This document shows positions 1 to 60,730 of a stretch of DNA of 64,000 nucleotides, piece after piece. Source of the stretch: a virus; IMG/VR virus record IMGVR_UViG_3300027741_000002, positions 62,001 through 126,000 of that record; one strand, 5' to 3'. Position 1 is the first letter of the stretch. Each line of letters begins with the position of its first letter. The notes beneath the pieces are model-generated. The model made no database searches, was not told the DNA's origin, and was given only the letters and a program-made list of their open reading frames with translations. Position numbers and translations under genes: made by a program.

Positions 1-3000
1 CGCGCGCGATATTAGTTGCGGCAATCTCGGAAAGAGGTCCACTAATATCATAGTTAGTTGCTAGATCATCCTTCTTGACATAGAAGCGTTGTCCCGATGC
101 AACATGAGTAGCAAGCCATGTGTCGTTGTAACCTGACTCATACATGCCAAGACGTTTAATATCAAAGCCTTTAACCTTATTTTGCGAGATGTCTTCTATA
201 GTAGCACTAGCAAGATCTGTTCCTACGCCAAAGTCGGTAGAATTAAGTAGAGGGTTGTCTGCCTTAGCCTCGGCGTGAAGTGCCTTACGTAGTTGGAAGA
301 TGTCCTGCATTGGCAGATCTCTTCCTTCCTTAGTTAAAAGTTGTTTTGTAACATATGTATTAAGCGCTGTCTTTGCAGCTGGAGAAAGAACTGCTAGAGA
401 TCTATTGTTTTGCAGTACGTCTCTGATTTCAGCTAAGTACTGCCCAAGCTCTGAGTTCTTATTGCCAAACTCGTTACTGTTTGCAGTCATGACAAATTCA
501 CGACCGACGTTAGGCTTATTTTCTTTTGCCTCTATACGCTTACGCGCTGCACGAATCTGATCATAATTTACTGACTGTACTTGCTCCTTGACTGTAGGAT
601 CAAGTCGCTTGACGCCCATCCAGCCATTTCTTGCCATAAGATCTTTACCGGTCCAGGTCTTTGCACCTGGATACCAACCAACAAGAGCAAGCTCCATAGG
701 AGTTGGCGTCTTATTTAGATCTAATCCGCCGTCACGAAGTTTAGCCGCTGTTGCTTTTTCCTGTAGACGTTCAATCTGTGCAATTACACCTTTGTCCGTA
801 GCTACACGTCGCATCAGTCTTAATCGTGTAAATACTTCACTCTCTGCACTGGCAGGAGTTTCCCAGTTAAATCCGTTTAGCGCCCAGACAAATCCACCTT
901 GGTAGCTTCCTCCACCTGCAGCCTGCACATGAATTTCCTTAACTCCATTGGCGATATACCAATCTTCCATAAAACGGTTATACGCTGTAGCAAATCCAGA
1001 TTTTTTATCCTTAGCGTTATTTATAGCTAGGTAGTTATTCTTTACCTGCCACTCGAAGTTGTTAGCTCCTGTATTAGGATCTACAGCTGATTTACCACTA
1101 ACTGTTCTATTTATCGTTCCGATGCTTCTGCCATTAGAGTCTAAAACATTCATTGCGATACTAAGACTCACGGGCTGATTGCCAGCTTGTAGTTCTTCCT
1201 TTGTTCCGCTTAAGAATACATTAAATCCACCAAATGTTAGCGAGTAGTTATTCTTTCCAAACGTTACGCCATCGCGAACACCGTAGGTATCCTTCATCAT
1301 CGCGTCAAGCTGCTCTTTTTTCTTAGTGACTTCTAAAGATAGCGCTTCTTTTTGTGCTGCAGGAGCCGCACGGAACTCGAGGATAGCTAGTTGATGATCA
1401 ATAGCTGCCTGCTTAATACTTTCAAGAGTTACACGATCTTGAGCTGCCCTAGCAATTTCTCCCGCGCGCAGACCCCAGACAGAGTAGTCGCTTTGTTTTG
1501 CATCGGGATTTGTGAATTCTTTTAGACGATCTGGAGTAGTTCCAAGATCGTTAACACCTTGGATATTTCCTTCAGTTGCAATTGCTCCAGGGTTAAGAAC
1601 CGGTGCGTCAAGGCGTGATGATACATCTGGAACTGGCGGAGGAGTAGGTGCCTGTCGCTGAGCTTCATTAGGAACTGCCTGCTGCGCATCTCCAGTTGCT
1701 CGTACCTTAAGTGCAGAGCGAACTGCTACTGACCCGTCGTCAAAACGCACACGAACATAAGGAATACGTTCACCTGTGCGTGAGTCAATATTTTGAACTG
1801 CGATAACTGTTCCAGTGCGGCCATCACGAGAAGCACGAATACGTGTTCCCTTGCCCATAACCTTACCTGCAATATCAAGAACTGTGTTGTCTGGGTGATA
1901 CCCACGATTTTCTGGTCCCGGGTAGACAGGCGCTGGGTTATTAGCTGCAGGAGAATCTACACTTACTGTCTCTACAGGTTGCGCTACTTCTGGCGCTTGA
2001 CGCTGCCCTGTTGTAGGAGGTCCAGCTTGTGGTGTAGGCGCTTGAGCTGGCGCTGGAGCTACTGGAGTTTCTATAGCTTGACGCTCTCCTGTTGTAGGAG
2101 GGAATCTACGCTCAGCAGCGGGAGTAGGCGCTGGGTTAAGGATAGCAGGACCGGCGACTTCTGCAATTGCGTCGATGATCTCCGACTTGTTTGCCTCAGA
2201 CCAGTCAAGAAGTCCTTTTTGGTCTATTGCATCACGAATCTTATTTGCTGTCTCAGGATCAACTGTGTTACCAGTTTGTTCAATGAGATCTTTAATCATC
2301 TGTGAATGCGCCTGAAGAGTTGGACTTTCAGAAGACGAAGGAGAAGGAGACGTAGTATCCATATTGTTTGATTCTTTCTTAAGATCAAGAAGAATCTGAT
2401 TTGTATTAACACCTTGATACTGAAGTGCGTCGCGCATTGACTCAATTGGAACTTCAACGGTGATGTTGTCAAATGCTAGAAGCGCAGCGCCTGACCCGTC
2501 GGTGATTCCAGATATAAGTTGCTCGACAAGATCTGCAGTGTAATAATCCTGCGCAAGAATTTGCGGATTGTCTGTGTAGCCATTGTTATCGACTGTAGGC
2601 TGAGATGGCACGTACGCATTTGGATCTGGAATGTAATAGTCTGGGTTTTGGAAGTCAATTGGTAGATTTTCAATAAGCTTCCCTGGCAAAGGCTCAGGTT
2701 TAGCATTAGCGTCTTTTTGGTTTGCAATAGGATTATCGCCAGGCTTAGTTGCGTCTTTAAGTTGACGTATTTCCTGCATTATAGAATCAACAAGCTGTGT
2801 CTCGTCAGCTGAAGGCTTTCCGCCTTGTGCCTCGATAATCTTATTAAGGTTATCATTATTGCCGTTAGCCGAGTCATAGATGTTTGCGATGACGCGGTTA
2901 GGGTCTAATCCAGCTTCCCATAAAGCGTTAAACAGCGCCTCAGCAGGCACATACTCTGCACCTGCGCTAAACTCTAGTTGGCCTGCACCTGAAGGCTGTC

Positions 3001-5047
3001 CAACGTTTACCTGCGGAATGTCAACGTTATTTGGAATAGCTGCAGGGTCAACCATATCGTTATTGCTATCAACGTTTGCGTTAAGAATTTCTGCTATGGC
3101 TGCATCTGTAGAGTTCCCCAGCAGCGCCTGTGACAACGCCTGAACAAGTTCCTGCGGAGTAAACTTAGTTGCTAGCTTCTTTGGGTTGTCTGTAAAGTCT
3201 CTGCTTGCTTCATCTACGCGTCCTTGAACATCGTAGTTTGCAGTATTAAGTTTGAATGCTCCATTTGGCGCTGTAAAGTCTGGGAATAGCGCAGGGGCTG
3301 TAGGCGCACTGGTATTAACAACTTTTTCTGCGTTTGACTTATTATTTGAAGGAACAGTTGCAACTTTCTTTACTGCCTTGCTTTTTACAGTCTCTTTAGA
3401 CGGAGTAAACTCAATTGGGTTATCCTTGGTAAACGTCGAATTGAGATAGTCAACTAGACCTGGAAGACCTTGTGTTTCAATCTGGCTCCATGAGTCAAAC
3501 TTCTGTGCGCCACCACGGCCGTCTGTTCCAGGCTCAGGGATCCACCCAGATGCATGCCCGGCGATATATTTACCGTCTCCAGTTAAATACGCAAGAACTG
3601 GATAAGTTCCACCGTCGCGCAATGGAAGTTCACGAGAGTAGTGTGTGTCGTTATTTGGATCACGTACCCAGCCGTCAGGAACTACATTTCCGTTAAGATC
3701 TTTATTTCCAAGTGGTTGAGGCGCAGGCTTGCCTGCGTCAATTGCCTTGTTCTCCTGCATGCGCTGTTCTTGCATCTTAAGGATGTCTTGTGGGTTAATA
3801 ACGTCCTTAGCTGTAGCGCCAGGAATTTTACCAAGAGGAAGTTGACCTTCTGTGGCTTTTGCTTCTTGGCCAGCAATATACTTATCAAATGATGGTTCGT
3901 CCTTAGACATAGCTGCGTTAGCTTCTGCCCAGCTGCTAACTCGCGCAATAGCTTCTCCGGTTGGACGCCCATTTGCGTCTAGACGTAGTACAGAATGTGG
4001 ACGCCCGCTGCGGTCAATGACGACAGCGTAGTTATCGTCTGATATATACATCCCATTTTGATAGTGCCAACCGATTGGCGCGTCTTTACGTGTTGCAGTA
4101 AGCTCCGCTAGCGTAGGAATATTTTTGTCGAGTTGATCTTTAAACGAAGGTTTCTCTGGAGCCGCATGTCCAGGAATACGTGCCTGGTATACCTGGGCGT
4201 TACCACTTTTAATAACATAAAGCCCTGGTCGAAGTCCAGGAACTCCTGATACTTCGATAAGTCCTGAGTCTGCAACAAGTGACGGGCCTTTAGGCGTATT
4301 CTCGATACGAGTATCTCCGCCGGCGCCGATATAGTCTCCGCTGCCAACTTGAATTGAGCCGTCAGGCAAACGGAAACGGAAGTTAACACCGCGTCCCATT
4401 TCAACCCAGCGGCCCTTCTTGTCACGCCACTGTAGAGCAACGCGTGCGCGACGAGCCGCGGACGAGTTTCCGCTGCTAAACGCTGCAATAATAGGTGAAA
4501 GGTTGTCAAGCTTAAAGTATGACGCAAGAAGAGTCTTGTTTGCATTGAGTCGAGCAAACGCATGTTCACGCTCGATAGACCCTGGCATTGCTCCGTGAGC
4601 TGAGGCAACTAGTGGACGAATAGACTCGTCGATGGAAGTATCAGCTGCAATCCACTGCGCGTTCTTTGCAAGAAATTCCTCGGCAGAAAGCGACGCGTTA
4701 AGAGAAGATAGAGGGTGGCCTGCGACTAGCAAATCTGTGTTACTTGTCTCGCTGGCTGTAAATGTCTTTGTTGCAACACTAAGGAAGCGTGATACCTCCT
4801 TGAGGACCGCAAAGTTGCGCGCCTCGTCGTCAAGTGTTGATAGATCTGCAAGTGCACGATTCATTACGATAAGCGCGGCGCGCGGAGTTACATGACGCTC
4901 CTCGGATACCTTAGAGTTTGCATCCTTGACGAGAGATAAGACTTGCTCATGCAAAGAGAAGACAGGTAAAAAGTTACTGTCTTTTTTCTTACGAGCTGCC
5001 TTGCGCTTGAGCATACGCTCAATCTTGTCGTTTAGAGGTGCATCCAT
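1..5047 (-). CDS. giant virion-associated protein, C-terminus cut by window edge
   Basis: An uninterrupted frame of about 1682 codons begins at ATG (MDAPLNDKIERML) just after the Dps-fusion gene and runs off the left edge. The N-terminal third is soluble and mixed. Around residues 975-1030 there is a Pro/Ala/Gln-rich linker. Around 1060-1120 an SH3/KOW-like strand set includes RTGTVIAVQ and VRVRFDDGSV. Around 1350-1395 the string GGFVWALNGFNW follows a helix, which resembles GNAT-like domains seen in some phage head proteins. At the very end GQRFYVKKD followed by EIAATNIAR resembles the ATP-lysine region of HipA or PI-kinase-like folds. The fold guesses are inference. Position after portal and Dps-fusion genes implies a head or injected protein. 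Neither family nor function is certain. Confidence 0.8.
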   Translation of the reverse strand, partial: MDAPLNDKIERMLKRKAARKKKDSNFLPVFSLHEQVLSLVKDANSKVSEERHVTPRAALIVMNRALADLSTLDDEARNFAVLKEVSRFLSVATKTFTASETSNTDLLVAGHPLSSLNASLSAEEFLAKNAQWIAADTSIDESIRPLVASAHGAMPGSIEREHAFARLNANKTLLASYFKLDNLSPIIAAFSSGNSSAARRARVALQWRDKKGRWVEMGRGVNFRFRLPDGSIQVGSGDYIGAGGDTRIENTPKGPSLVADSGLIEVSGVPGLRPGLYVIKSGNAQVYQARIPGHAAPEKPSFKDQLDKNIPTLAELTATRKDAPIGWHYQNGMYISDDNYAVVIDRSGRPHSVLRLDANGRPTGEAIARVSSWAEANAAMSKDEPSFDKYIAGQEAKATEGQLPLGKIPGATAKDVINPQDILKMQEQRMQENKAIDAGKPAPQPLGNKDLNGNVVPDGWVRDPNNDTHYSRELPLRDGGTYPVLAYLTGDGKYIAGHASGWIPEPGTDGRGGAQKFDSWSQIETQGLPGLVDYLNSTFTKDNPIEFTPSKETVKSKAVKKVATVPSNNKSNAEKVVNTSAPTAPALFPDFTAPNGAFKLNTANYDVQGRVDEASRDFTDNPKKLATKFTPQELVQALSQALLGNSTDAAIAEILNANVDSNNDMVDPAAIPNNVDIPQVNVGQPSGAGQLEFSAGAEYVPAEALFNALWEAGLDPNRVIANIYDSANGNNDNLNKIIEAQGGKPSADETQLVDSIMQEIRQLKDATKPGDNPIANQKDANAKPEPLPGKLIENLPIDFQNPDYYIPDPNAYVPSQPTVDNNGYTDNPQILAQDYYTADLVEQLISGITDGSGAALLAFDNITVEVPIESMRDALQYQGVNTNQILLDLKKESNNMDTTSPSPSSSESPTLQAHSQMIKDLIEQTGNTVDPETANKIRDAIDQKGLLDWSEANKSEIIDAIAEVAGPAILNPAPTPAAERRFPPTTGERQAIETPVAPAPAQAPTPQAGPPTTGQRQAPEVAQPVETVSVDSPAANNPAPVYPGPENRGYHPDNTVLDIAGKVMGKGTRIRASRDGRTGTVIAVQNIDSRTGERIPYVRVRFDDGSVAVRSALKVRATGDAQQAVPNEAQRQAPTPPPVPDVSSRLDAPVLNPGAIATEGNIQGVNDLGTTPDRLKEFTNPDAKQSDYSVWGLRAGEIARAAQDRVTLESIKQAAIDHQLAILEFRAAPAAQKEALSLEVTKKKEQLDAMMKDTYGVRDGVTFGKNNYSLTFGGFNVFLSGTKEELQAGNQPVSLSIAMNVLDSNGRSIGTINRTVSGKSAVDPNTGANNFEWQVKNNYLAINNAKDKKSGFATAYNRFMEDWYIANGVKEIHVQAAGGGSYQGGFVWALNGFNWETPASAESEVFTRLRLMRRVATDKGVIAQIERLQEKATAAKLRDGGLDLNKTPTPMELALVGWYPGAKTWTGKDLMARNGWMGVKRLDPTVKEQVQSVNYDQIRAARKRIEAKENKPNVGREFVMTANSNEFGNKNSELGQYLAEIRDVLQNNRSLAVLSPAAKTALNTYVTKQLLTKEGRDLPMQDIFQLRKALHAEAKADNPLLNSTDFGVGTDLASATIEDISQNKVKGFDIKRLGMYESGYNDTWLATHVASGQRFYVKKDDLATNYDISGPLSEIAATNIAR

Positions 5048-5058
5048 CTAGATGATAC

Positions 5059-7113
5059 CTATCCCTTACGCTTCTTTGGGAGTAAATCCGCGTCCTTAGA
5101 ATCATAGAGTTTTGTCGCTAGGGTGTATGCTCGCTCAAACGGGATATCCCCGTCTCTTACACCTCGTAGCCACGCACCGCGTAGCGCAGGGATTGCCTCA
5201 TAACCTAGAGATGAGTACTCGGCCATCGCATGGATAGCGTGCTCTGGTGAGCCGTATTCATCAGCAGTCTTAAGCGCAATAGATAAAAGTTCGTGCTGCA
5301 TTATTGAAGCCTCAGCGCGAGAAGACTTAGGGTGAGCCTTAGGCAATAGATCATTGTCCTGCTTATAGTTTGGATTTGCAGGAGAGCCAGACTTGAGAAG
5401 TTTGAGGAACGCATTAACGCGAGCCATTGCCCAACCATCACGAGTCATACCTGGTCGGTGGCTAGACGAGAACGCGCCTGAACCTCTACGGTAAACTGCC
5501 TTTAGCATTGGAAGGGTTGCCTTACGCCCAGGCTTCGCACCCTTGTTATGAGTTTCTACTTTAGCGCGAAGGCTTGCTTCAGTTCTTGCAGAGAAAACGA
5601 TCTTCTTAGATCCTGCGGCGCTTCCTGGCTTATTTTTCTTTGAGCCGTGAATACGATCTTTCTTTGGAGCTGGGCGTGAGCCTGCAGATGTGATTGGACC
5701 TCCGACTGCCCACGCGTTACACGTGCGTGTCGCGGCGCACTTAAAATCTAGTGCTTCGCAGTAGCCAAGATCTGCTTGCTTGATAGCTGCATCAGCATCT
5801 ACTTGACTTGAGTCTCCTTGTTCTAGTCCTTGTGCGATGCAGTCGAGCATCTTAGGTGTTTGAACAAAAAAGACACAGTTACCGCAGCGACTAGTCTTTG
5901 CCTCTTCAGGAGTTGTTTTCCACTTGTCTGCTTTTTCCTGCCAAAATTCTTCGTTAGGCTCGTTTGGATTCAACGGGCCATAGCCCACGTTGTCAATTGC
6001 GTTTTGACGATTCTTTAAGTTAACTTGAATATCCTGAGTCGCGACAGGGCATGCATCACCTTCACCTGCAGCAACGATAACTTCTCCGTCACCGTTATCT
6101 GCTCCGTCAACGTTAACTACACCGTCAGGGATAACAGCAAAGCGGCACTTGCCGTCGTCTTCAATAGTAGGTGCGATAATCTTGCAAACGCCAGGACCGT
6201 CATACAGGACACAGTTGACGCACTTAACACCGATCTCCTTGTACTCGTTTTCAGCCGCAGGAGTGTACCCTGCCCAGATGCCTGTCTCGTCTTCGTTAAA
6301 CTTTCCGTACTTGTCCGCGATCTCTAGTAGAGCTGCTGCAAGATCCTGCTCTTCGGCAACGATAACTCCTGCTGCTTGAAGAGCTTCAACCCGCTGCTCT
6401 TGAAAAGAGAAATACATATCCTGCGAGGTATACTGTCCGTACTCGTCTGCAGACAGACATTGATTACACACACAACCGGAGTCACATAGACATGTTCCTC
6501 CGTCACATCCTGGACATACACAGCCAGCTGGTCCACAAAGTGGGCAGCCGTCTGCGTCGTCCATAAGCTGCTCAACAACAGGAGTGTCTCCTGCGTCTAA
6601 AAGTTCAGCAGCTTCAGATTTTCCCGGCATACCGGAATCTGTAGGTGTTAAATATGCGCCAATCTGCCAACGCCACTTCTTGTGCATGTCATCACGGTCT
6701 GCGAGGAAGTTGATAACTCCCTGCTCGTTGTATTTAGCAGCAAGATCAAGGGCTTGTCCGATAACTGCAATCATTACATCGTTAGCTGCGTAGAGATCTG
6801 CTAGCATGGAGAATGGGTCGTCTGTAACGTCCATATCCTGTGTCTGGTTAAGATCAATAAAGTCTTGAAGCTTGTAAGGAGCATCATGACCCATCTTTAG
6901 CATAAGCTCTGCCGTAGGATCGATAGACTCGTAGAGATCCTCGTAGATCTCTTGGAAAAACTCGTGAAACTCTGCAAAGTCGCGTCCCTTTACGTTCCAG
7001 TGATGGCCGTGCGTCTTAAAGTACATAGTTACTACGCTGCCTAGAACTACAGCAATCGAGCTGCTAAGCTCCGATCTGTCGGTATTAGTGTCTATGTTTT
7101 GATTTTCGTACAT
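5059..7113 (-). CDS. Dps/ferritin-like domain fused to Cys-rich and phage head-associated domains
   Basis: The 684-residue product starts with a Dps-type four-helix domain (about 15-155). It keeps H38, H50, D65 and E69 at the spacing of the Dps ferroxidase centre (compare His51, His63, Asp78, Glu82 of E. coli Dps). The position matching Asp67 is Gln54. THGHHWNVKG is the family signature. A cysteine cluster follows (about 188-218, repeated CxxC and CxC), then two more Cys-rich segments (about 297-325 and 405-465). A basic C-terminal domain (about 500-600) contains HRPGMTRDGWAMARVNAF and QDNDLLP, a pattern I recall from other tailed-phage head-region proteins. It lies 2 nt after the portal gene. 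A virion role with iron or DNA binding is inferred. Confidence 0.85.
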   Translation of the reverse strand: MYENQNIDTNTDRSELSSSIAVVLGSVVTMYFKTHGHHWNVKGRDFAEFHEFFQEIYEDLYESIDPTAELMLKMGHDAPYKLQDFIDLNQTQDMDVTDDPFSMLADLYAANDVMIAVIGQALDLAAKYNEQGVINFLADRDDMHKKWRWQIGAYLTPTDSGMPGKSEAAELLDAGDTPVVEQLMDDADGCPLCGPAGCVCPGCDGGTCLCDSGCVCNQCLSADEYGQYTSQDMYFSFQEQRVEALQAAGVIVAEEQDLAAALLEIADKYGKFNEDETGIWAGYTPAAENEYKEIGVKCVNCVLYDGPGVCKIIAPTIEDDGKCRFAVIPDGVVNVDGADNGDGEVIVAAGEGDACPVATQDIQVNLKNRQNAIDNVGYGPLNPNEPNEEFWQEKADKWKTTPEEAKTSRCGNCVFFVQTPKMLDCIAQGLEQGDSSQVDADAAIKQADLGYCEALDFKCAATRTCNAWAVGGPITSAGSRPAPKKDRIHGSKKNKPGSAAGSKKIVFSARTEASLRAKVETHNKGAKPGRKATLPMLKAVYRRGSGAFSSSHRPGMTRDGWAMARVNAFLKLLKSGSPANPNYKQDNDLLPKAHPKSSRAEASIMQHELLSIALKTADEYGSPEHAIHAMAEYSSLGYEAIPALRGAWLRGVRDGDIPFERAYTLATKLYDSKDADLLPKKRKG

Positions 7114-7115
7114 TG

Positions 7116-8840
7116 CTACGCTCCTTCTTGTAGAGCCGGTGGTAGTGGTGGTTCAGGTGTTGCAGTTGGAGCAGGGGCAACGGGTGTTGCTTTGTCCAAA
7201 ATCTGTTGAATCTCTGGAGGTACTGGCGCGGCAGACTCTGCCTGTTGCGCTTCACGCACAGACTTCATAATCTCTGGAGCGATAGCTCCAATCATGGCCT
7301 GGGTAAGCTCTTGTGAAAGAACGCCCTTCTCTACAAGAAGACGAATTGCAAGTTCATTCGCGTCCGGCGCATCGGTAGCTGCAAATCCGTGAGCGCGACG
7401 CCATGCGTCATAGGAGACTGCCATCTTGTCAAAGCCCATGTCAGCATCTGCCGCGCGGTCGTTACGTGTTGAAACTGCGCTTGGGTCATACCAGATGCAT
7501 ACACGGGCTACGTCCTCCTCTACGAAGCCTGCAGCAAGGAGCGCAGGTCGTAGGTAGGCAACTGTAAGAGAATCCGCGATAAGAAGCATGAGAGGCTCGA
7601 TATGCGCCTTGTACAAGTTATCATCGATAGTCTGGGCGTTAGTGTACTTAACGTTTGCTAAACCGGTAATAATATCCTTAGGCACATCAAGCCCTTGAAG
7701 GATACGGTCAAGTACCTTATCGGAGCGATCTGCAAGTGCAGGGTCAAACGAGCGCTCAAACTTAAACTGCTTAATTTTGTCGCCAAGCTCTGCAGGTCCG
7801 CGAATAATAAGTGGAACAACCGCTGAAGCCGAGTCCTCGTCACGAATCGGAGTCGTCATCGCATCCATGAGTTGATCTTCAAACTCGTCGGCTGCTTCCT
7901 CCGCGGTCATGCCAGGATTGAGATCATTCTCGTCATCATACGGATAGTCAGGATCTGGAGACGCGGCAACAGAGAGACCGTCTGGGAGATAGAGAGCGCC
8001 AGCGTTTAGACGTGAGCGAGCTGTCGCGCGGAACGTACGGTTGAGCAAAAGTAGCTCTGAGCAAAGATCAAGTAGACCGCGTAATGATGAATCAGCCTCG
8101 TCTGAGTAGCGTGGGTGAGCTCTCCAGATACGAGCAACAAACGCTGTGTTAGGAAGTTTAACTCCGTTTGCGCCGGAGCGTGAAGACTGCGTTCCAATAA
8201 TGTCGCGGCGTGGAATAACAACGTATGAATTCTTAGAGTCTAGCTGCAACTCGTCTGTTGAGCGAATATCCCAGGACTCCTTAAGTCCTGAGCCCTTACG
8301 CTCGGGGAATTGAACAAGATAGCACTCGCCACTGACTAATAAGTTAAGAGCTGCATCCTTCAAAAGACCAGCTTGTCCGCCATACGCGGAGCTTAGACGC
8401 GCGAGGGCACGTTCAGCTGCGGCCGCGAGACGTGTATCAACTACCTCGCTGATGTTTACAGAGACAGGGTTCTCTCCGGCGTTATCAATAGCTCCTGCGT
8501 ATAAACGGATACGAGATACTACAGATGAAACAAGATTAAAGGCGTACTTGATCTCTCCGATTGCGTCGTAGTATTCCCATGCCTCGGACTGCCAGTCGCT
8601 GGATCCTCCGGAGCGGCGTTGCTTAAACTTCTCAACTTCGCCCTTGTCGTTAATCTGTAACTGAACTGCGGCGGCTGTAAGAGAGCGAGGAGCAGAGTAA
8701 GGAAGTGCCTGGGCATAGGTCTTGCCGTCAAAAACTACTGTCGCAGGCAGAGTGTTACGAGGCGCCTGTGCGGTGATACGACGAGTACGGGCAGGGTTGC
8801 CTTTAGGCTTCTTACTATTATCCTTAGAGAATAGTCCCAC
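7116..8840 (-). CDS. portal protein
   Basis: The 574-residue protein has portal-type architecture. A basic N-terminus is followed by an alpha/beta body containing the string EYYDAIGEIKYAFNLVSSVV. A central stem region includes RILQGLDVPKDIITGL and KYTNAQTIDDNLYKAHIEPL, which is typical of actinophage portals. A Pro/Ala-rich tail ends the protein. Portals form the dodecameric ring at the capsid vertex through which terminase packages DNA. It is followed within 2 nt by the Dps-fusion gene and preceded by small genes, and the large terminase lies upstream at 13.2-14.6 kb. This fits a normal terminase-portal-head order. Family assignment is by pattern, with no alignment run. Confidence 0.85.
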   Translation of the reverse strand: MGLFSKDNSKKPKGNPARTRRITAQAPRNTLPATVVFDGKTYAQALPYSAPRSLTAAAVQLQINDKGEVEKFKQRRSGGSSDWQSEAWEYYDAIGEIKYAFNLVSSVVSRIRLYAGAIDNAGENPVSVNISEVVDTRLAAAAERALARLSSAYGGQAGLLKDAALNLLVSGECYLVQFPERKGSGLKESWDIRSTDELQLDSKNSYVVIPRRDIIGTQSSRSGANGVKLPNTAFVARIWRAHPRYSDEADSSLRGLLDLCSELLLLNRTFRATARSRLNAGALYLPDGLSVAASPDPDYPYDDENDLNPGMTAEEAADEFEDQLMDAMTTPIRDEDSASAVVPLIIRGPAELGDKIKQFKFERSFDPALADRSDKVLDRILQGLDVPKDIITGLANVKYTNAQTIDDNLYKAHIEPLMLLIADSLTVAYLRPALLAAGFVEEDVARVCIWYDPSAVSTRNDRAADADMGFDKMAVSYDAWRRAHGFAATDAPDANELAIRLLVEKGVLSQELTQAMIGAIAPEIMKSVREAQQAESAAPVPPEIQQILDKATPVAPAPTATPEPPLPPALQEGA

Positions 8841-14626: not shown

Positions 14627-15550
14627 TTATACGGGTACGTTGCTAATATCTGAATATATTTCTGATACTACAGTTGCCCACACCTTTGGTGTGTGGTCGA
14701 AAGGTTGATAACCACCGGCTCCTCCAATAAGTACTCTGCCTCTTGCATGCTTGTTAGCGATGTCCGCAATGATGCGAGCAGCAGCTCGATACCCAGGATA
14801 ATCAAAGTTAAGACCAGACAATGGATCTGAATGATGTGCGTCAGCTCCGGTAGCTAGAAGAATAACATCTGGCTGAATATCATCCGCAAGCAGCTCGATC
14901 TCTTGCATCGCATCCAGAAATTCTACGTCACCATCTCCGTTAGCTAATGCCCAGTTGTATACTCCATTTTCTGGCTCGTTCTTAAGACCAGTTCCCGGGA
15001 AGATTCCACCTTGGTGGATACTTGCCGTAACTAGATTTCGATACGGGCGCAGGATATTCTCAACGCCGTCACCATGATGCGCATCCCAATCAATGTACAT
15101 AGGCTTAAGCCCTGCAGCCATAAATAACTTAGCAACTAACGCCATGTCGTTGAATACACAAAAACCAGAGCTATGGTCATACTGCGCATGATGCTTAGCT
15201 CCTTGCGGATTGAAGGCTACCTGAGCTTCTCCTGAAAGAATCTTTTCATACATGCGAATAGTCCCCGCAGCCATCTCAAGAGCAACGGCTCCAAGATGTA
15301 GCTGGTCAGGATACCATTCACCGCAGTGACCTTTATCTAAAACCTTAGAAATGTATTCATCAGAGTGAACATGATTTAACAAGTCTCTGTCTGATTCAGA
15401 CGCTGATGGCTTAACCATTACTGGTTCTAAGTCTTTAAGAAGCTCTACCGCAAGCTTAGCACGAATTGGATTAGTTGGGTGACTACCGTCACCATTTCCT
15501 AGCTGCCAATCAAGATAGATATCGTCGTATGCGACGTGTAGCTTACTCAC
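14627..15550 (-). CDS. histone-deacetylase / acetylpolyamine-amidohydrolase family enzyme
   Basis: The start is set at GTG 15550, overlapping the phosphatase stop, because VSKLHVAYDD aligns with family N-termini. ATG at 15574 is possible. The 307-residue product has every key motif: active-site His pair H120-H121 (GAKHHAQ), zinc ligands D156 and H158 (DWDAHHGDG) and D237 (GADAHHSDPLSG), and the GG-Y tail motif (IGGAGGYQPFD). The family removes acetyl groups from protein lysine or small amines. In a phage it could reverse host protein acetylation, which is inference. It is translationally coupled to a phosphatase. Confidence 0.9.
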   Translation of the reverse strand: MSKLHVAYDDIYLDWQLGNGDGSHPTNPIRAKLAVELLKDLEPVMVKPSASESDRDLLNHVHSDEYISKVLDKGHCGEWYPDQLHLGAVALEMAAGTIRMYEKILSGEAQVAFNPQGAKHHAQYDHSSGFCVFNDMALVAKLFMAAGLKPMYIDWDAHHGDGVENILRPYRNLVTASIHQGGIFPGTGLKNEPENGVYNWALANGDGDVEFLDAMQEIELLADDIQPDVILLATGADAHHSDPLSGLNFDYPGYRAAARIIADIANKHARGRVLIGGAGGYQPFDHTPKVWATVVSEIYSDISNVPV

Positions 15551-16064
15551 TTGCTTTGTCCAACGTTCGAACATACGCTTCAAACTCACCGTTACATAAA
15601 ACATATGAGGTTCGCTTAGTACGAAGAAGCGTGATAGCTTCATCAGGAGTATAACCAGCTTTGATAAGAACAAGAGCCGCAGTTAAACCAGAGCGGTTAA
15701 GCCCAGCTTGACAACGAATTAAAACCTTCTTACCAGCCTTCCACTTGCTATGCGCAAATGAGACAGCTGTAGCTAGAGACTCTGAGTCAATATGGTCTAC
15801 GTCTGAATCATAAAAACCAAAGCGTAGTTCCTCAACCATCCAGTCAACTGGATTTGCCCATGCGTATAAAGTTACTACCGCATCGAAATCTTTCTTTGTG
15901 ATTTGTTTAGGCGCGTCTAATACTGCTGACTCTTCAATTGTGTCCAGGTCATCAGTTCCGCCTACCCATAAACCAGGCAAGATCTCGCTGTGCAATGGAA
16001 AGTCCCAGCTGTCTAACTGATGTGCTGGTGCATATCCTTCGTTTGTTTCAATGAGCTTTGCCAT
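15543..16064 (-). CDS. dual-specificity protein phosphatase
   Basis: The 173-residue protein has the Cys-X5-Arg loop RCQAGLNRSG with Cys118 and Arg124. A putative general-acid aspartate lies in FYDSDVDHID (86-93), and the recognition region includes ILPGLWVGG. It should dephosphorylate phospho-Tyr/Ser/Thr proteins or related substrates. The last codons overlap the deacetylase start, so both are made together. An extended promoter lies about 40 nt upstream of its ATG. Confidence 0.88.
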   Translation of the reverse strand: MAKLIETNEGYAPAHQLDSWDFPLHSEILPGLWVGGTDDLDTIEESAVLDAPKQITKKDFDAVVTLYAWANPVDWMVEELRFGFYDSDVDHIDSESLATAVSFAHSKWKAGKKVLIRCQAGLNRSGLTAALVLIKAGYTPDEAITLLRTKRTSYVLCNGEFEAYVRTLDKASE

Positions 16065-41062: not shown

Positions 41063-42721
41063 TTAAATCGCGTATCTAACAATTATGATACCGGAGCCGC
41101 CGCTGGCTTTATAACCGCCACCGCCACCGCCCATATTTGCTGGAGCGTTTGTATTTTGTTCTCCACCACCACCAAGACCTGGCGCTGGAGTGTTATACCA
41201 ACCTGCTCCACCACCTGCGTAATAATAATTACCACCCGATAATTGACCTGTTGATGTAGCAGAACCCATTGCGTTAATTAAGGCAGATGTTGCACCAATT
41301 CCACCAGTTCCACCGATTACTGAACCGTTTGCATTTCCACCAACTCCACCAGCACCTCCACCACCACCAGTACAAAATGCAGCAGTACCGCCAGCGTTAC
41401 CTTGTCCAAAAGTACCACTTCCAGGATTAGTAGTTCCCCCACCATTATTAGAGTTACCACCTGCACCTGATCCGCCAGTAGGGTTTTGGCTTCTATACCT
41501 TGCTCTACCACCACCAACACAAAGGGTCAAGGAACCAAATTGAGAATCATTACCGCTTGTTGCATCATCAACATAATTATCAGTAGCAGTAGTACCACCT
41601 GCACCTACTGTGCAAGTATATGCCTGAGCAGTAAGGGATTGAGAACTAAAAGTTAATAATCCACCAGCACCACCGCCACCTGAATCTTGTGAAGTTCCAC
41701 CTCCGCCAGCAACAACTAATATATCTGCACTTAAGGATATGGTTGGAGTAAATGTACCTGACCCAGTAAATGCGTGATACACATATCCATCAGCGTAACT
41801 TACAGTTCCGCCAGTTGCCTTAGGTGCAGCAGTGTAAAAAATACCTGAAGATAAAAATGTGTGAATTGTATTTCCACCTGATGTGGTTACAGTTCCACCA
41901 ATCGCTTTTTGTGTAGTGCCTGAGTATCGGGCTATAACAATTCCTGAGCCGCCGTTGCCTCCATTTTTATTGGCTTGATAAGCACCGCCGCCACCGCCAC
42001 CGCCTGTATTAGATGAACCATTGTTAGTATTTCCATTTGCTCCACCGCCAGTTCCACCAGTACCAGGGCCAGTTGCAGAGCCGTAACGATAAGATGAACC
42101 ACCACCACCACCACCAGCATAAGTAGTTGATGAGCCTGAAATAGATGTGGCTACACCATTACCACCATTACCTTGTGTTGAATAATTACCACCAACAGCA
42201 CCAGCGCCACCGCCACCGCCAGGACTTTGGTCATAACCACTAATTCCAACAGCAGCATCACCACCAGCATAACCTTGATTAATTGTACCAGCAGCGCCCG
42301 TAGAAACAACAGAATAATCTCCAGTACCACCACCACCACTACCACCTGTACCAGGTGCAGCATTTGCTGAATTAATACCTGATGAACTTCCTTTACCACC
42401 ACCAATAGAAGTTATAGTAGAAAATACAGAATTACCACCTTGAGTAGCATAAGTTGTTGAAGATTGTATTCCACCATTACCACCAGCACCAACAGTTACT
42501 GTGTATGCAGTATTAAGTGCCATTGATAAAACAGTTTCTAGTGAACCACCACCACCAGTTGCAGTAACAGTAGAGCGTAAACCTCCTGCTCCGCCGCCAC
42601 CACCACCAGCATTTGAAGCAGCAAATCCTGCACCACCACCACCTGCAACAACAAGGTAGTCAACTGCAAGTGTTAAACGACTCAACGCTCCCGCTGAAGC
42701 GGCAGTTCCAAGAATTGGCAT
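41063..42721 (-). CDS. glycine-rich adhesin, tail-fibre tip type (paralogue 1)
   Basis: The start MPILGTAASAGALSRL follows AGGATAAACTA. The 552-residue product is a series of Gly-rich blocks (GGGGAG, GGAGGL) alternating with short beta sequences such as LVVAGGGG and VTVGAGG. C-terminal GGSGIIIVRYAI is shared with two other adhesins here. Poly-Gly folds like this occur in T-even-type gp38 adhesins and bind receptors at the fibre tip. The repeats probably reflect duplication. It has no signal peptide. Confidence 0.8.
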   Translation of the reverse strand: MPILGTAASAGALSRLTLAVDYLVVAGGGGAGFAASNAGGGGGGAGGLRSTVTATGGGGSLETVLSMALNTAYTVTVGAGGNGGIQSSTTYATQGGNSVFSTITSIGGGKGSSSGINSANAAPGTGGSGGGGTGDYSVVSTGAAGTINQGYAGGDAAVGISGYDQSPGGGGGAGAVGGNYSTQGNGGNGVATSISGSSTTYAGGGGGGSSYRYGSATGPGTGGTGGGANGNTNNGSSNTGGGGGGGAYQANKNGGNGGSGIVIARYSGTTQKAIGGTVTTSGGNTIHTFLSSGIFYTAAPKATGGTVSYADGYVYHAFTGSGTFTPTISLSADILVVAGGGGTSQDSGGGGAGGLLTFSSQSLTAQAYTCTVGAGGTTATDNYVDDATSGNDSQFGSLTLCVGGGRARYRSQNPTGGSGAGGNSNNGGGTTNPGSGTFGQGNAGGTAAFCTGGGGGAGGVGGNANGSVIGGTGGIGATSALINAMGSATSTGQLSGGNYYYAGGGAGWYNTPAPGLGGGGEQNTNAPANMGGGGGGYKASGGSGIIIVRYAI

Positions 42722-42803
42722 TAGTTTATCCTTCTCTAAATATACATACAATTCTATACCAATTCTATACTAGTACGGACAAAGCGTCTTAAGGCATAAG
42801 AAA

Positions 42804-45238: not shown

Positions 45239-45418
45239 TCATTTAGACGTTGAGTAAAACCCGTTTCCTTTGAAGCTTATTGAAGGTACGCTGTACTGTC
45301 TCTTAAGCTCTTCAGAGCACTCCGGAGCGGTGCAGGTTGGATTACCCTCTGGCTCGCTTATGCTACGCTCTATGAGGTTGTAGTGACCATTCTTGCAATG
45401 ATATTCGTACTGTGGCAT
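45239..45418 (-). CDS. FmdB-like zinc-ribbon protein
   Basis: The frame from 45418 (MPQYEYHCKNGHYNLIERSI) ends SVPSISFKGNGFYSTSK. This start and ending match the FmdB regulator pattern. The zinc site is C8, C29 and C34 plus a His, one Cys short of a classic ribbon. ATG overlaps the stop of the ribonucleotide reductase gene (TAATG), so the two are cotranslated. Confidence 0.75.
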   Translation of the reverse strand: MPQYEYHCKNGHYNLIERSISEPEGNPTCTAPECSEELKRQYSVPSISFKGNGFYSTSK

Positions 45419-47457
45419 TACTTCATGTTCTCCACGATAAGCTTAACCTCGCACGCATCAGTTGTGCAGTACGCATCTCCGATTGCATCCGACGCCATTC
45501 CTGCGTAGACTCCGGTGAAGTCAATAGGAAACAACTTCATCGTCGCATCCTCATACTCACTTGCGGTGATCTGCGTGTATGGCATCTGCGGATATGTGAA
45601 GTTACCCATCGGCAGGAAGGACACTGTCTTCAACTGTCCGTCGTACATGTGAAGAACTGTTCCTACGTGCTCCGCTTCCTTTTCAGGATCAAATGATACG
45701 GTTACAGAGACAGAGTTGTCTGACCAGTAGCGCTGCGCTGTTGCGGCGATTGCTGTCTTCTCAAAGATTGATACTTCCTTCTCGGCACGCTTAGCGCTTG
45801 ACTTGATAGGGAAGAACACGACGCTCGTAAAGTCTGGTGACTCTGACGCAGGCTCAACTCTGTAGTTTGCCATCTTGAAGAGAGGCAACATTGGATCTTC
45901 GTTAGAGAAACGAATTGCGCGGTTAAAGTACTCTCCGCCTGGTGTCCAGTGAACTCCCGGTGACTCTCCTGCCAAGATTGAAACTGTACCTGAAGGCTTA
46001 ACGGTAGTCATCTTAATAGACTCACGAATACCAAGCCACTCTGAATACGTGTTGTCATACGTCTTGACTGTCTTGTATCCTTCGTCCATCCACTCACGCA
46101 GAGTTGGTAAACCAACGTTGTCTGCAAAGTTAGCTACACCGGACATTGAAGTTCCGATACGGCGGTTGCGTTGCATGATTGCGTTTGTCTCCTCCCAGTG
46201 AGTAGGAAGCAGCGTCACTGTCTTAGCATATAGATATGCAAACTTCAACGTGCGCTTGTAGTCTTCTAGTGAATCGTGACGTCCTAGATACGTCTCAACA
46301 AGCGTGCAACACTCGTATGATTCAAGTGACTGCTCTGCGCAAGGGTTGTATCCAACTACGCGGTGATCCTTGTTGTTTACTGGATCTGCTAAACGACCAT
46401 ACTTACGTGATACGTCCATCCAGACTACGCCAGGCTCTCCGTTGCGGGCAATGCCCTCAACGATCTTGTCTAGATCTTGTCCTACTGTTGTTTCAATGGA
46501 GTTGTTTGACATCCAGCCCCAACCCGGTGATGCTGGGTCATAGCTATTGCGCTCTGGGAAACGCTCTGTGTTCTTAAGGTTTAGGAACGTATCGTCATCA
46601 AGGCGACCGATTAGAAGTTCAGCTGAGCGACGAACGTTGCCAGAAACAACGCACACGCCAATAAGATTACCGATGTCAGCAAGATCAGTACGAGTAACTT
46701 TTTCACCGGCGCGTCCTTCAAATAGTTTACGGATGTAGTTGTGTAAACGTTCTAACGGTTCGTGTCCTGCGGCTGTGCCACCGAACGTCTTGATTGGAAT
46801 ACCTGCTGGGCGGACTTGGCTGTAATCATATAATGGAGCCTTCTGATCTGGCTTGAGGTAAGCATTGAGGATGATTGAGAGTGATTCAACCCATCCTTCT
46901 CTTGTGTCTGGGACAACGTATGTTTCCTCTCCTTGCGGTGAATAAATCACAAAATCTTTGTCTGCACCTTTATCATCAAATCCTACACCAACGCCGAGCA
47001 TTGACGCTTCCATAAGAAACGCAAAAGGCTTTGCTGGGTTTTGCTTTGTCATTTCAAGTGTTGAAACAAATGCACAGTTTTGCAGTGCTGCAGAGTTCTT
47101 TTGCACGTTAACTAAAGGAGTACCCATAACCCAGAGACCACGACCTGGCGGTGTCCACTTTAGATTAAATAGTCTATCAAATCCATCCTTTGCAGATGCC
47201 TGTGCCTTTGAATCATTCCAAGGAAGTCTTTGGCTTTTGCAGTGATCTTTTTGAATAGAGTACATGCCATTGATGACACGCTCGCATACGTCAGCCCAAG
47301 TTTCCTTGGTGCCGTCTTCTTTTAAGCGAGAGTACGTGCGAAGAAAAGTAATTTCTCCAACAGAGTTTCCTGCTGCATCAGTGTAGCCAAAAGGAGCTTT
47401 CTTTCCTCGATACCCTTGCACAAAATCATCGCTTAGTTTGAAAGAGAAAAAGCTCAC
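45418..47457 (-). CDS. nrdJ: B12-dependent ribonucleoside-triphosphate reductase (class II, NrdJ)
   Basis: The protein of about 679 residues starts at GTG 47457 with AGGGGG upstream. It is of the monomeric adenosylcobalamin type (about 739 residues in Lactobacillus). Cys128 and the C-terminal DACEVK tail fit the redox pair set. NPCAEQ gives the thiyl Cys373 and Glu375, and Cys384 is 11 residues on as in known enzymes. It makes dNTPs without oxygen dependence but needs host B12. It is coupled to FmdB-like gene 45239-45418. Confidence 0.93.
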   Translation of the reverse strand: MSFFSFKLSDDFVQGYRGKKAPFGYTDAAGNSVGEITFLRTYSRLKEDGTKETWADVCERVINGMYSIQKDHCKSQRLPWNDSKAQASAKDGFDRLFNLKWTPPGRGLWVMGTPLVNVQKNSAALQNCAFVSTLEMTKQNPAKPFAFLMEASMLGVGVGFDDKGADKDFVIYSPQGEETYVVPDTREGWVESLSIILNAYLKPDQKAPLYDYSQVRPAGIPIKTFGGTAAGHEPLERLHNYIRKLFEGRAGEKVTRTDLADIGNLIGVCVVSGNVRRSAELLIGRLDDDTFLNLKNTERFPERNSYDPASPGWGWMSNNSIETTVGQDLDKIVEGIARNGEPGVVWMDVSRKYGRLADPVNNKDHRVVGYNPCAEQSLESYECCTLVETYLGRHDSLEDYKRTLKFAYLYAKTVTLLPTHWEETNAIMQRNRRIGTSMSGVANFADNVGLPTLREWMDEGYKTVKTYDNTYSEWLGIRESIKMTTVKPSGTVSILAGESPGVHWTPGGEYFNRAIRFSNEDPMLPLFKMANYRVEPASESPDFTSVVFFPIKSSAKRAEKEVSIFEKTAIAATAQRYWSDNSVSVTVSFDPEKEAEHVGTVLHMYDGQLKTVSFLPMGNFTYPQMPYTQITASEYEDATMKLFPIDFTGVYAGMASDAIGDAYCTTDACEVKLIVENMK

Positions 47458-47533
47458 CAAAACCCCCTGGAATATGTTGTAATTTTAGATCAAAATTAGA
47501 TGACGAATTATACTGCTTTTTCGTTAAAGCGTG

Positions 47534-47778: not shown

Positions 47779-48675
47779 TTAACCACCCACTGCAGAACGA
47801 AGATAGCGAACAATAACAATACCAGATCCACCTATGCCACTTACTGTATTGTATTGACCGCCGTTCAAAGCTCCGCCGCCGCCACCACCAGTATTAGTGC
47901 CACCTGCAACTCCGTACCCACCGCCTCCACCTGCGCCAGCTTGTCCACTAGAAGCATCAACTCTGTATCCGCCGCATCCACCACCTGCGTAATATCCGCT
48001 TCTACCAGTTCCAGTTGCAGTTGCCCAAGATGACCAAGTGCTTAATCCATCTCCGCCCGACCCGCCAGGAGTTTCTCCGTACCCTCCGCTAAGAGACACG
48101 CTACCTCCTGCTGCGCCCGCGCCGCCTCCGCCACCTTGCGCTGGATACGCACCGTTTGTGCCACCAAAAGAATCTCCACCTTTATTTCCATAAAAAATTC
48201 CGCCAGTGCCGCTTGTAGCTGCGCCACCTGTTGCTGTTGCTGATGTGCCCTGATTACCGCTTGCTCCACCGCCAGATCCGCCAGCTACTCCGTCTACAGC
48301 ACTAGCTAATACGCCTCTACCGCCGCCCTTTGCGATAAATAAAGAACCTAGTGAAGAATCAACTCCATTAGACCCAAGGCTGCCACCGCCACCAATTGTT
48401 GCCGTGTAAGTTCCCGCCGAAAAAGAAGTTGCAGCTCCATATTGAACTCCACCAGCTCCACCGCCAGAAGCGTATCCTCCAGCCGAGTTATTTCCGCCTG
48501 GGCCTCCGCCTGCAATTACAAGAGCATCTGCAGTAAGAGGAGCTGCAGTGACTACTAAGTCTGCGGTAGAAGTAAATGTACGGTAGTAATAAGTTGCGTC
48601 ACTAGTAAGTGTACCGCCAGTGACAATTGACAAAGGTACATTGTACCCGCTCGCGATTGTTCCAAGAATAGGCAT
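47779..48675 (-). CDS. glycine-rich adhesin (paralogue 2)
   Basis: The 298-residue protein begins MPILGTIASGYNVPLSIVTG, keeping the MPILGT.AS opening of paralogue 1. Gly-rich blocks follow and the end has GGSGIVIVRYLR. It is roughly half the length of paralogue 1, with one repeat unit rather than two. It probably serves as an alternative receptor-binding tip. Confidence 0.8.
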   Translation of the reverse strand: MPILGTIASGYNVPLSIVTGGTLTSDATYYYRTFTSTADLVVTAAPLTADALVIAGGGPGGNNSAGGYASGGGAGGVQYGAATSFSAGTYTATIGGGGSLGSNGVDSSLGSLFIAKGGGRGVLASAVDGVAGGSGGGASGNQGTSATATGGAATSGTGGIFYGNKGGDSFGGTNGAYPAQGGGGGAGAAGGSVSLSGGYGETPGGSGGDGLSTWSSWATATGTGRSGYYAGGGCGGYRVDASSGQAGAGGGGGYGVAGGTNTGGGGGGALNGGQYNTVSGIGGSGIVIVRYLRSAVGG

Positions 48676-52455: not shown

Positions 52456-54452
<1,997 letters not shown>

Positions 54453-58108: not shown

Positions 58109-60730
58109 TTATCCGCGAGAGTAGCGAGAAGCAAGACCCCAGTCGACCTCGCCAGTTTGTACAGCGCGCGGAACAAGTATTCGACCTTGAATTTCAGCCT
58201 TTGAACCAAGACCGACTACAGTCATTCCGCGATCCGATATCTTACGCTGGAATGCAATCTGTGTCATTGGTCTTTCACCGCGTTCTTCACTCCATGCACG
58301 ATATACAGAGTACAAAGCCTTGATAGGAACTACCGTTCCTTCAGACTCCTTTGTCTCTTCGTTTAAGAAGATGCCGATACGGTCTTCGTTCTTTCTGTAG
58401 ATCTCAGATGCCTCGGTTACAACCTTACAGGTTCCAAGAGCATCACGTGCAGACGAGCCAAGCAGTTTAATCGCACCCTCAACTGCCCAGGATAGAACAG
58501 CAGGCAACGCGCCTTCAGGATCAAATATATAGTGCTTCAAGTCTGGGTCTGGAGATTCAGGAACGTTGTTCAATGGCACAGGACGAATACGACGCCACAT
58601 CGCATCATCGTTAATGATAGGTCTGTGGTTTGTTGTAACCCACAGTTTCGCGCGCGATGAAAACGTAAATGGTTTTTCACCAGGTGAACGTGCAGAGATT
58701 TCAGAAGAACCTGTAAGCTTCTTAACTGAGTTTTCTTTAAGTCTTTCAGACTCGGGCAACTCGTCAACCCACACCATACGACGTCCGCGTAACTCTGCCC
58801 AGTGATAAAGATCTGAGCCATTGGCGTGACCGTCTCCTTGCGCAAGGATAGAAGAATCAAGAGGCCAGGCATATTGCTGTGTGCCCATGCACTTAACCAA
58901 CGCTTCAACAAGTGTGTTCTTGCCTGAACCTGCAGGGCCATAGATCAAAAACATTACGTCGTATGTACGTAGACCGGTTAACGAGTAACCTGCTGCACGT
59001 TGAATCCAATCTTGCAGCTCTTTATCTCCGCCTGTTGCAAAGTCTAAGAACTGTTCCCACTTAACATTTCGCATTCCTGCGGTGTATGCAACAGGTGCGC
59101 GGCGAGTAATAAACAAATCAGGACGTCCCTTAAGTAATTCACCGGTGCGAAGATCAATAACTCCGTTGGCAACGCCAAGTAGTGTCTCGTCTGAATCCCA
59201 CGCGTTAACCTCAACCTGCACGCGAGGATCTGACGTTGCGTTTTCGATACAGCCTGCGATGCGCGAGTTAGATTTTGCTTGCAATGCCCACTTCATTAAC
59301 TCTGCTTGCTTGTCTGCGTCCTCATAGTTAACAACTTCAGATGCAATAACCGGCGCAAGCTTCTTTGTTAACTCTTGTAGTTCAAGATTTTCTACGTCAG
59401 GTTTCCAGTATCCGCCGTCCCAGTGAAACCAACCAAGTCCTGGCGTGTAACGAATTGCAGGACCAAATGCATCTACAAGACGACGACCGTTTCCCGTATC
59501 TGTAAGTGTGCGCTTACCAGGTTCTCCACCGTCGTTCTCGTTAATAGCGTCAACATCCTTAGGCACGTCCATCTTTAAAAGACTTGACGCCTCAGAAATT
59601 GAATCGCCATCTGAGATTGACTGTGTAATTGATCCGCCGATAGTTCCTGGTGCGTTATATGTATCCTGCGGTGAATAATTTTCAGTTGTTCTAATTTCCT
59701 GTTGCTTTGTAGGCTTAGAGCGTGTTTCATCTTGAGACTTGTTAGCCCACTCCTGTAGTCCTGGCCACATGCGCTCTGACTTTGGATTGTCAATAACAAA
59801 CTGAATTGCTCTGCGAACGTGCATGAGCAATCCGCCTTGGCCTTCAAGCTCAAGCGGAGGCCGCACCTTTTCAGCGTTAAAGCGAATCATCATAGTTTCG
59901 ACTGCAAGTTTACCAGCCTCGGTGTTGATTGGAAACTTATTAGCAAGCGCACATGTCATCGAGTAAATATCAACAGCGCGTGAGCCTTCTTCAATTCCTT
60001 CCTCAAGCAAACGTTCTACGTCGATGCGCTCGCCAGCAAAGTCTAGGTCCTCTAGGAAAGTCCAATCGCCTTCACCAAGATTCGTGCCACCGCGACGACT
60101 ATTCTTCTTACGAAGAGACTGCAGTAACTCTTCAGGTGCGGTTGCCATCTCAATTTCCCACGGCGCATGACCTGGTGCCCACTCGTAACAAACTCCAGAG
60201 AAGTGTCGTGATGGAGTAATTAAAACGTATCCATTGTGTTTAATATCAACGCCCGGAAGGTTTGCCTTCTTAAGATTTCCAACAAGCTGCTCTGACTCTT
60301 CGCACTTATAAAATAGGTGACGACCGCGCATTACCTTTCCACCGGCGATTGTGTACTCGCCTGTGATTGCCTCAACTGTTGGAGGCAGGAATCCTTCGAC
60401 TAATGCTTCAAACTTTTCAAATGAATCTGGTCCACCTGAGCGCGGATCAATATCAATTACAAAAAATCCACTGGAGCGACACATGACACCGATGTTCATG
60501 TTTGGATCTCTGTCCCACCAAGAGTCTACAGTTGCAGCGTCTGTAGTTGCAAACTTGTTCCACTCTGGAAGTGATGGGTGCTTGCCTACGTCCTTTGGCT
60601 CAACGTGCGCGCCGCCACAAGTGCAACGACCTCCGACGATTCCATAGCAAGGAAGTATAGACCAGTTATGAGTCGCGTACCAATTTGCAGCAGGACCTAG
60701 ACGTCCCTCTGCTGACTCCCATGCGCTCAT
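58109..60730 (-). CDS. primase-polymerase / SF3-type helicase
   Basis: The 873-residue protein has an N-terminal prim-pol domain (about 1-210) with metal-binding VIDIDPRSGG (Asp93, Asp95) and a Cys-rich patch CTCGGAH. A flexible middle follows. The C-terminal D5-like helicase has Walker A GPAGSGKN (598-605), acidic VWVDELPES and sensor LWVTTNHRP. Such fusions prime and unwind DNA at phage forks. ATG lies behind a variant leader (AACGACGAAAAGATG). It runs divergently from the 60959 gene. Confidence 0.9.
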   Translation of the reverse strand: MSAWESAEGRLGPAANWYATHNWSILPCYGIVGGRCTCGGAHVEPKDVGKHPSLPEWNKFATTDAATVDSWWDRDPNMNIGVMCRSSGFFVIDIDPRSGGPDSFEKFEALVEGFLPPTVEAITGEYTIAGGKVMRGRHLFYKCEESEQLVGNLKKANLPGVDIKHNGYVLITPSRHFSGVCYEWAPGHAPWEIEMATAPEELLQSLRKKNSRRGGTNLGEGDWTFLEDLDFAGERIDVERLLEEGIEEGSRAVDIYSMTCALANKFPINTEAGKLAVETMMIRFNAEKVRPPLELEGQGGLLMHVRRAIQFVIDNPKSERMWPGLQEWANKSQDETRSKPTKQQEIRTTENYSPQDTYNAPGTIGGSITQSISDGDSISEASSLLKMDVPKDVDAINENDGGEPGKRTLTDTGNGRRLVDAFGPAIRYTPGLGWFHWDGGYWKPDVENLELQELTKKLAPVIASEVVNYEDADKQAELMKWALQAKSNSRIAGCIENATSDPRVQVEVNAWDSDETLLGVANGVIDLRTGELLKGRPDLFITRRAPVAYTAGMRNVKWEQFLDFATGGDKELQDWIQRAAGYSLTGLRTYDVMFLIYGPAGSGKNTLVEALVKCMGTQQYAWPLDSSILAQGDGHANGSDLYHWAELRGRRMVWVDELPESERLKENSVKKLTGSSEISARSPGEKPFTFSSRAKLWVTTNHRPIINDDAMWRRIRPVPLNNVPESPDPDLKHYIFDPEGALPAVLSWAVEGAIKLLGSSARDALGTCKVVTEASEIYRKNEDRIGIFLNEETKESEGTVVPIKALYSVYRAWSEERGERPMTQIAFQRKISDRGMTVVGLGSKAEIQGRILVPRAVQTGEVDWGLASRYSRG

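Follow-up and report, generated by a model that had tools for sequence, protein, structure and literature searches.

A Dps-type mini-ferritin domain joined to a head-region protein of a tailed phage, with Dps fusions to prohead proteases in related viruses

Dps proteins of tailed phages have been published as stand-alone proteins of Lactobacillus plantarum phages (PMC6669764) and Gratiaviridae (PMC8008677), with protection of the host cell as their proposed role, and they are also present in Streptomyces and Aeromonas phages, so that the mention of stand-alone phage Dps in an earlier note on the DNA studied here was accurate. Those of the L. plantarum phages, the Gratiaviridae and Streptomyces phage Emma1919 (gene 20) are, in contrast to the gene described here, separate genes near DNA-metabolism or tRNA and metabolic genes, and are unjoined to head proteins. 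The gene that we describe, P0001, lies in a 64,000-nucleotide stretch (the window) of the virus record IMGVR_UViG_3300027741_000002, and it encodes a Dps domain joined to a phage head-region protein, which confirms the earlier observation as a whole. A second comparator is the group of polyvalent proteins (Iyer et al. 2017, PMC5512222), which resemble P0001 in being multi-domain, in being encoded in the portal and head gene block, and in being thought to be packaged; P0001 differs in its metal-binding theme, as that paper reports no Dps, ferritin or iron-sulfur domain, and none (0) of their signature effector domains was found in it. In the accessible part of the open-licence literature we found no report of a Dps joined to a prohead protease or head protein, which is weak evidence.

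The P0001 fusion and its Dps domain

P0001, also located at G000:C1:67062-69113 of the 129,506-bp virus record, is a single uninterrupted open reading frame (ORF) on the minus strand, a correction to the earlier note, and its modules follow one another from the N-terminus in the order listed, ending in a basic DUF5824-type C-terminal domain (CTD).

5059..7113, minus strand: fusion gene P0001, 684 aa, ATG start
6640..7077, minus strand: Dps domain, residues 13-158 (Pfam Ferritin, AlphaFold helices, PDB Dps matches)
6457..6555, minus strand: 10-Cys cluster (CYS), residues 187-219, with CxxC and CxC motifs, conserved in alignment A1
6079..6420, minus strand: Cys-motif domain MID, residues 232-345, CxxC-x8-C-x12-C (alignments A1 and A4)
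5680..6066, minus strand: HiPIP-like Cys-motif domain, residues 350-478 (tblastn hits, alignment A3)
5062..5679, minus strand: CTD, residues 479-684, ending DADLLPKK (PF19141)

The N-terminal part of P0001 matches Pfam Ferritin over residues 28-156 (1.9e-14, 54.2 bits against a cut-off of 24.5), the best PHROG for the protein is 3636 (residues 13-152, 8.5e-22), and a PDB sequence search returned solved Dps chains at 7.6e-14, with those of V. cholerae and P. aeruginosa as the best; these values place the Dps assignment far beyond chance. An AlphaFold model built on a 34-sequence alignment predicts a four-helix ferritin-like bundle (helices 7-40, 46-73, 100-127 and 131-155) with the short BC-loop helix (82-88) of the Dps fold, the predicted local distance difference test (pLDDT) by block being mostly 66-91 in this part and confidence being low over most of the remaining protein. 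In a Foldseek search, Dps chains rank first (8ff9, 3iq1, 2fjc, 2c41, 2chp), with a target template modeling (TM) score of 0.86-0.92 and a root mean square deviation of about 1.5-1.7 among the best. The Dps-like N-terminal domain claimed in the earlier note, which had named structure prediction as a check, is therefore borne out.

The ferroxidase ligands His, His, Asp and Glu are all present, as H38, H50, D65 and E69, and Gln54 occupies the position four residues after the second His where an additional acidic ligand could stand (Asp47 in L. innocua Dps), just as the earlier note had read them. All 40/40 relatives whose sequence spans the site have the four ligands without change, as do 19/19 divergent phage Dps. 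We searched viral contigs with diverse phage Dps seeds and obtained 195 distinct Dps ORFs (protein sequences not identical) in 431 loci, counts that come from best-80 lists around chosen seeds and so represent neither a random sample nor frequencies, and the spaced ferroxidase motif is found in 194 of these 195. At residue 54, nearly all of the 194 motif-bearing ORFs have Q, E, A, S, G, L or N (Glu in 30/194) and none has Asp (0), and therefore Q54 reads as a trait of the phage clade, typical of its members, rather than as a lesion of the P0001 copy; the extra acidic ligand is in any case inessential to the Dps fold assignment. The conservation of the ligands also bears on the idea that the Dps has no iron chemistry and is there solely to scaffold head or portal assembly as a 12-mer, which would suit a domain that adjoins the portal and has head proteins as its fusion partners, but which we consider very improbable given that the ligands are kept in all but one of the ORFs, while the rest of the domain falls to about 36-58% identity.

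Comparator structures are those of PA0962 (8ff9), V. cholerae Dps (3iq1) and B. subtilis MrgA (2chp), which share with P0001 the four-helix bundle with its BC helix and the H, H, D, E ligands, but which lack its approximately 530 appended residues of Cys-rich and phage domains, its Gln at the fifth ligand position, its acidic tail and its head-operon location. The 12-residue N-terminal tail (residues 1-12) has a net charge of -3 and contains no Lys or Arg, and thus a Lys-rich DNA-binding tail of the E. coli type, which is not universal in Dps, was not found there; the Dps domain itself is also acidic (net -13). Because both the domain and its tail are acidic, only the basic half of the CTD, residues 479-600 (net +22), could account for any DNA binding by P0001. 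The AlphaFold prediction is of a monomer, and P0001 would presumably assemble as a dodecamer.

In comparisons of P0001 with its five nearest relatives, the ratio of nonsynonymous to synonymous divergence (dN/dS) is 0.03-0.13 for the Dps part and likewise well below 1 for the CYS, MID, HiPIP-like and CTD parts, indicating purifying selection on the Dps part and on the other domains of the protein. A search of IMG/VR recovered dozens of distinct full-length relatives from many metagenomes, and this recurrence in independent contigs, together with the selection across all domains, leads us to reject an artefact of assembly or ORF calling, an origin that the earlier note had asked to be checked and to which we now give practically no chance. 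What might be said for such an artefact is that in a minority of relatives the Dps and the CTD protein are separate adjoining genes, with a Dps gene that immediately follows the portal (L075, L078, L149, L156 and others), but this arrangement speaks for a history of fission and fusion and not for an assembly error.

The relatives carry the modules as Dps-CYS-MID-HiPIP-CTD, Dps-CYS-MID-CTD, Dps-CYS-CTD and Dps-MID-HiPIP-CTD, and also as CYS-MID-HiPIP-CTD without Dps, in addition to the separate Dps gene, and by this comparison of sequences the modules are swapped freely. Relative to P0001, one of these genes (L008, 6001-8052) is nearly identical in Dps-CYS-MID, with a synonymous divergence (dS) of about 0.02-0.06, but has diverged in HiPIP (dS 1.09) and in the CTD (dS 0.56), a pattern such as recombination inside the fusion gene would give. 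In a further relative (L076:5962-6719) the Dps coding sequence is split into two fragments over two overlapping frames, which could be sequencing error or decay.

Dps fusions to prohead proteases in other phages

A further fusion partner of P0001-related Dps, in other contigs of aquatic phages, is Peptidase_S78 (PF04586), the caudovirus prohead serine protease. Within the 195 ORFs, Dps lies N-terminal to S78 in 61 and C-terminal to it in 4; 8 have the same N-terminal phrog_2859-Dps start with S78 not seen, mostly at contig ends, and in one (L299) the Dps is within a protease of a second type (P0003-type), followed by the major head protein. About 44 are of the portal-adjacent CTD-fusion type found in the window, and 21 immediately follow the portal and were labelled stand-alone, 3 of them being cut by contig ends. 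The Dps of L213 is joined to a phrog_2859 domain, which is known in portal and protease proteins. Ferritin and S78 were both found in one ORF, by Pfam and by PHROG, in eight examples (L257, L258, L262, L274, L293, L302, L307, L309), with Pfam values for S78 in these Dps ORFs reaching 2.8e-48. ORFs that combine Dps with a prohead serine protease include the following.

L257:3429-4817, Dps and prohead serine protease
L262:2094-4280, Dps and prohead serine protease
L274:4117-6222, Dps and prohead serine protease
L293:5272-6588, Dps and prohead serine protease
L299:2-2674, Dps and prohead serine protease (second type)
L309:5512-6504, Dps and prohead serine protease

Three loci that we opened (L355, L376 and L293) show the terminase and/or the portal, then Dps-S78 or S78-Dps, and then the major head protein. 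The window phage differs from these in that the partner of its Dps is the DUF5824-type protein and its own protease is encoded by another gene. A HAD/polynucleotide-kinase-like domain is present as well in two of the S78 fusions (L274 and L307).

A second Dps tree (75 rows, 141 columns; L070, L241 and L244, which are cut by contig ends, were left out) is rough, because it has only 141 columns, and it requires 12 changes of context label, its starred branches forcing at least two for S78-N, at least two for S78-C and at least four for CTD-fused. Since the domain orders also differ, the tree and the gene context together point to Dps having been joined several separate times to head-maturation and head-assembly proteins. 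These repeated fusions, in varied orders, are hard to explain by expression timing alone, which is what would be expected if the Dps worked solely in the infected cell and at a late stage, to guard nascent DNA or to manage iron freed by lysis, with its place in the head operon reflecting timing and its fusions reflecting linkage without packaging. Many phage Dps do stand alone outside head operons, and the known ones are proposed as host-cell protectors (PMC8008677, PMC6669764), so that such a late role has some footing, and we judge it distinctly unlikely.

The head gene block, the C-terminal domain and the Cys-rich modules

The head gene block of the window phage runs in the order terminase, smaller genes, portal, P0001, P0002, a small gene, head maturation protease (PHROG 18402 and 859) and major head protein (PHROG 777), which places P0001 among head genes.

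7116..8840, minus strand: portal protein (PHROG 776, 8.9e-109), directly upstream of P0001
13202..14596, minus strand: terminase large subunit (Pfam Terminase_6N, 1.1e-21), in the same block
1..5047, minus strand: in-window part of P0002, the giant downstream gene (1912 aa), whose N-terminus is a second CTD copy

The position beside the portal that the earlier note had claimed is thus correct, and the Dps fusions of relatives whose 5' flank is intact begin 0-21 bases behind the portal. The P0001 product may be present in virions. P0002, which runs on beyond the window, has a weak PI3/PI4-kinase-like match at its C-terminus, with the motif NNQDRHNGN, and looks like a packaged multi-domain protein. 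This neighbor, with its kinase-like match and its copy of the CTD, suggests the possibility that P0001 is itself an injected effector of the polyvalent-protein type, acting mainly in the newly infected cell rather than protecting the virion, whether by withdrawing iron, by blocking peroxide-based damage or by attacking host DNA, given that DNA cutting in vitro is known for some Dps. Polyvalent proteins do lie near portal and MuF genes, and their packaging and injection are presumed (PMC5512222), and PA0962, the closest solved Dps (8ff9), is reported to cleave DNA in vitro (PMC10002758); however, no domain of P0001 is one of the enzymes listed in PMC5512222, and a Dps within a prohead protease is unlike the usual effector arrangement, and overall we regard this possibility as unlikely.

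The phage-head-type C-terminal domain proposed in the earlier note corresponds to DUF5824 (PF19141), which matches residues 534-582 at 28.4 bits against a cut-off of 25, a partial match to positions 71-119 of the 127 in the model. A second structure model, of residues 350-684, gives a confident CTD (block pLDDT mostly 80-97), for which a fold search returned no credible PDB match, and no paper on DUF5824 was found in the open-licence literature. The CTD is also present in P0002, at the C-terminus of three head-protease ORFs (L222, L228, L233) and, in a Salinibacter phage, in the product of the gene that immediately precedes the one for the major head protein, and because of this distribution we read it as a head-operon module, which may have a role in targeting.

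The Cys-rich clusters reported in the earlier note are real, with 10 Cys at 187-219, 4 in the MID domain at 232-345 (all four invariant in alignment A4) and 7 in the HiPIP-like domain at 350-478. The CxC pattern of the 10-Cys cluster resembles metallothionein by eye only, as the cluster matched no Pfam family at E<=1. In phage DSL-LC01 and in spring-water phages, the HiPIP-like domain has a gene of its own, annotated there as 'high potential iron-sulfur protein', while in P0001 the HIPIP model (PF01355) reaches 15.0 bits against a cut-off of 22, and PDB sequence and fold searches gave no match. A HiPIP identity for the two Cys domains was therefore not confirmed by Pfam, PDB sequence search or fold search, and with the Pfam score below its cut-off, iron-sulfur binding by these domains is no more than a possibility. 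In the accessible open-licence literature we found no paper on a HiPIP protein together with phage and capsid. Two head-maturation protease ORFs (L183:1-2607 and L227:3285-5453) also contain a HiPIP-like Cys domain, as an insertion or as an appended part.

The closest named relative that we found is the Actinomycetia phage DSL-LC01 (OQ999401), assembled from Dishui Lake (PMC10611076) and of similar size (129,469 bp). Its portal and terminase are strongly related to those of the window phage, and its CTD protein has a 64% identical C-terminus, but its gene corresponding to P0001 has no Dps domain, and its HiPIP-like gene stands before the protease. No relative was found among genome contigs that would point to a host for the window phage, and the relationship to DSL-LC01 by itself suggests an actinobacterial one.

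Elsewhere in the window, an ORF beside the terminase gene (14627-15673, minus strand) has histone-deacetylase-like motifs by eye (HHAQYDHSSGFCVFNDMAL, DWDAHHGDGVE) and no PHROG match, and another (15543-16064, minus strand) has by eye a dual-specificity phosphatase-like signature, CQAGLNRSG. There are also a B12-dependent (class II) ribonucleotide reductase (45418-47460, minus strand; Pfam RNR_Alpha 2.1e-29 plus an RNR-II insertion domain), a Prim-Pol plus D5-type primase/helicase protein (58109-60730, minus strand), a collagen-like repeat protein (52809-54452, plus strand) and two glycine-rich-domain proteins (41063-42751 and 47779-48675, both minus strand).

A packaged mini-ferritin as the favored role of P0001

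In the course of its assembly, the prohead takes up prohead proteases and portal-adjacent proteins. We consider it somewhat probable that P0001 is a head-cargo Dps, a packaged mini-ferritin that protects packaged or incoming DNA from iron and H2O2 damage. The Dps domain would oxidize Fe2+, probably with H2O2, at its His-type ferroxidase center, the Cys-rich modules may bind further metal or clusters, and the basic DUF5824-type CTD would place the protein in or on the prohead, next to the portal; related phages would reach the same end through a Dps fused to the prohead protease and delivered inside during assembly. Oxidation of Fe2+ with H2O2 would prevent Fenton damage to the packaged genome in sunlit water that contains peroxide, and the Dps may also be injected, so as to protect the genome or the host cell in the first minutes of infection. 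This explanation draws on the Dps fold and conserved ligands, the selected fusion, the head operon, the Dps-S78 fusions, the presence of the CTD in proteases, the basic half of the CTD, and H2O2 in lake water, measured at 50-120 nM in one lake (PMC3965437). Of the interpretation in the earlier note, the Dps fold, the ferroxidase residues, the fusion and the head-gene setting stand, and a capsid role in iron or DNA binding is supported in part, being strengthened by the Dps-S78 fusions, with any DNA binding left to the 479-600 stretch.

Several considerations weigh against a packaged role. The fifth ligand position is Gln, the roughly 530 extra residues per subunit might hinder a dodecamer, and the CTD is without a recognised fold, so that its proposed targeting role draws on gene context alone. 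About 54 of the 195 Dps ORFs are stand-alone without a head marker within 3 kb (at least one of which, L290, sits between terminase and portal), and a Streptomyces phage has its stand-alone Dps in a neighborhood of tRNA and metabolic genes; together these cases mean that a link to heads is not the general rule for phage Dps. The survey counts, too, derive from chosen seeds.

Since related viruses also fuse Dps to their head-maturation protease, the findings suggest that many aquatic viruses load an iron-oxidizing antioxidant into their DNA-containing shell. We see an even chance that this is a widespread, repeatedly evolved strategy of aquatic tailed phages, in which a capsid mini-ferritin is acquired through fusion to a prohead protease or head-cargo protein, giving virions their own iron-oxidizing antioxidant and possibly an iron core. 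The Dps-protease fusions make packaging simple to test, because entry into the prohead is established for prohead proteases. If the proposal is true, virions would be active toward iron and peroxide instead of serving as inert containers, and there would be a protein basis for the question of the iron content of virus particles raised in the Ferrojan Horse discussion, which is not known to have proposed iron sites outside tails. It would also account for the survival of virion DNA in the face of photochemical H2O2, and the capsid with its mini-ferritin would be a natural nested protein cage.
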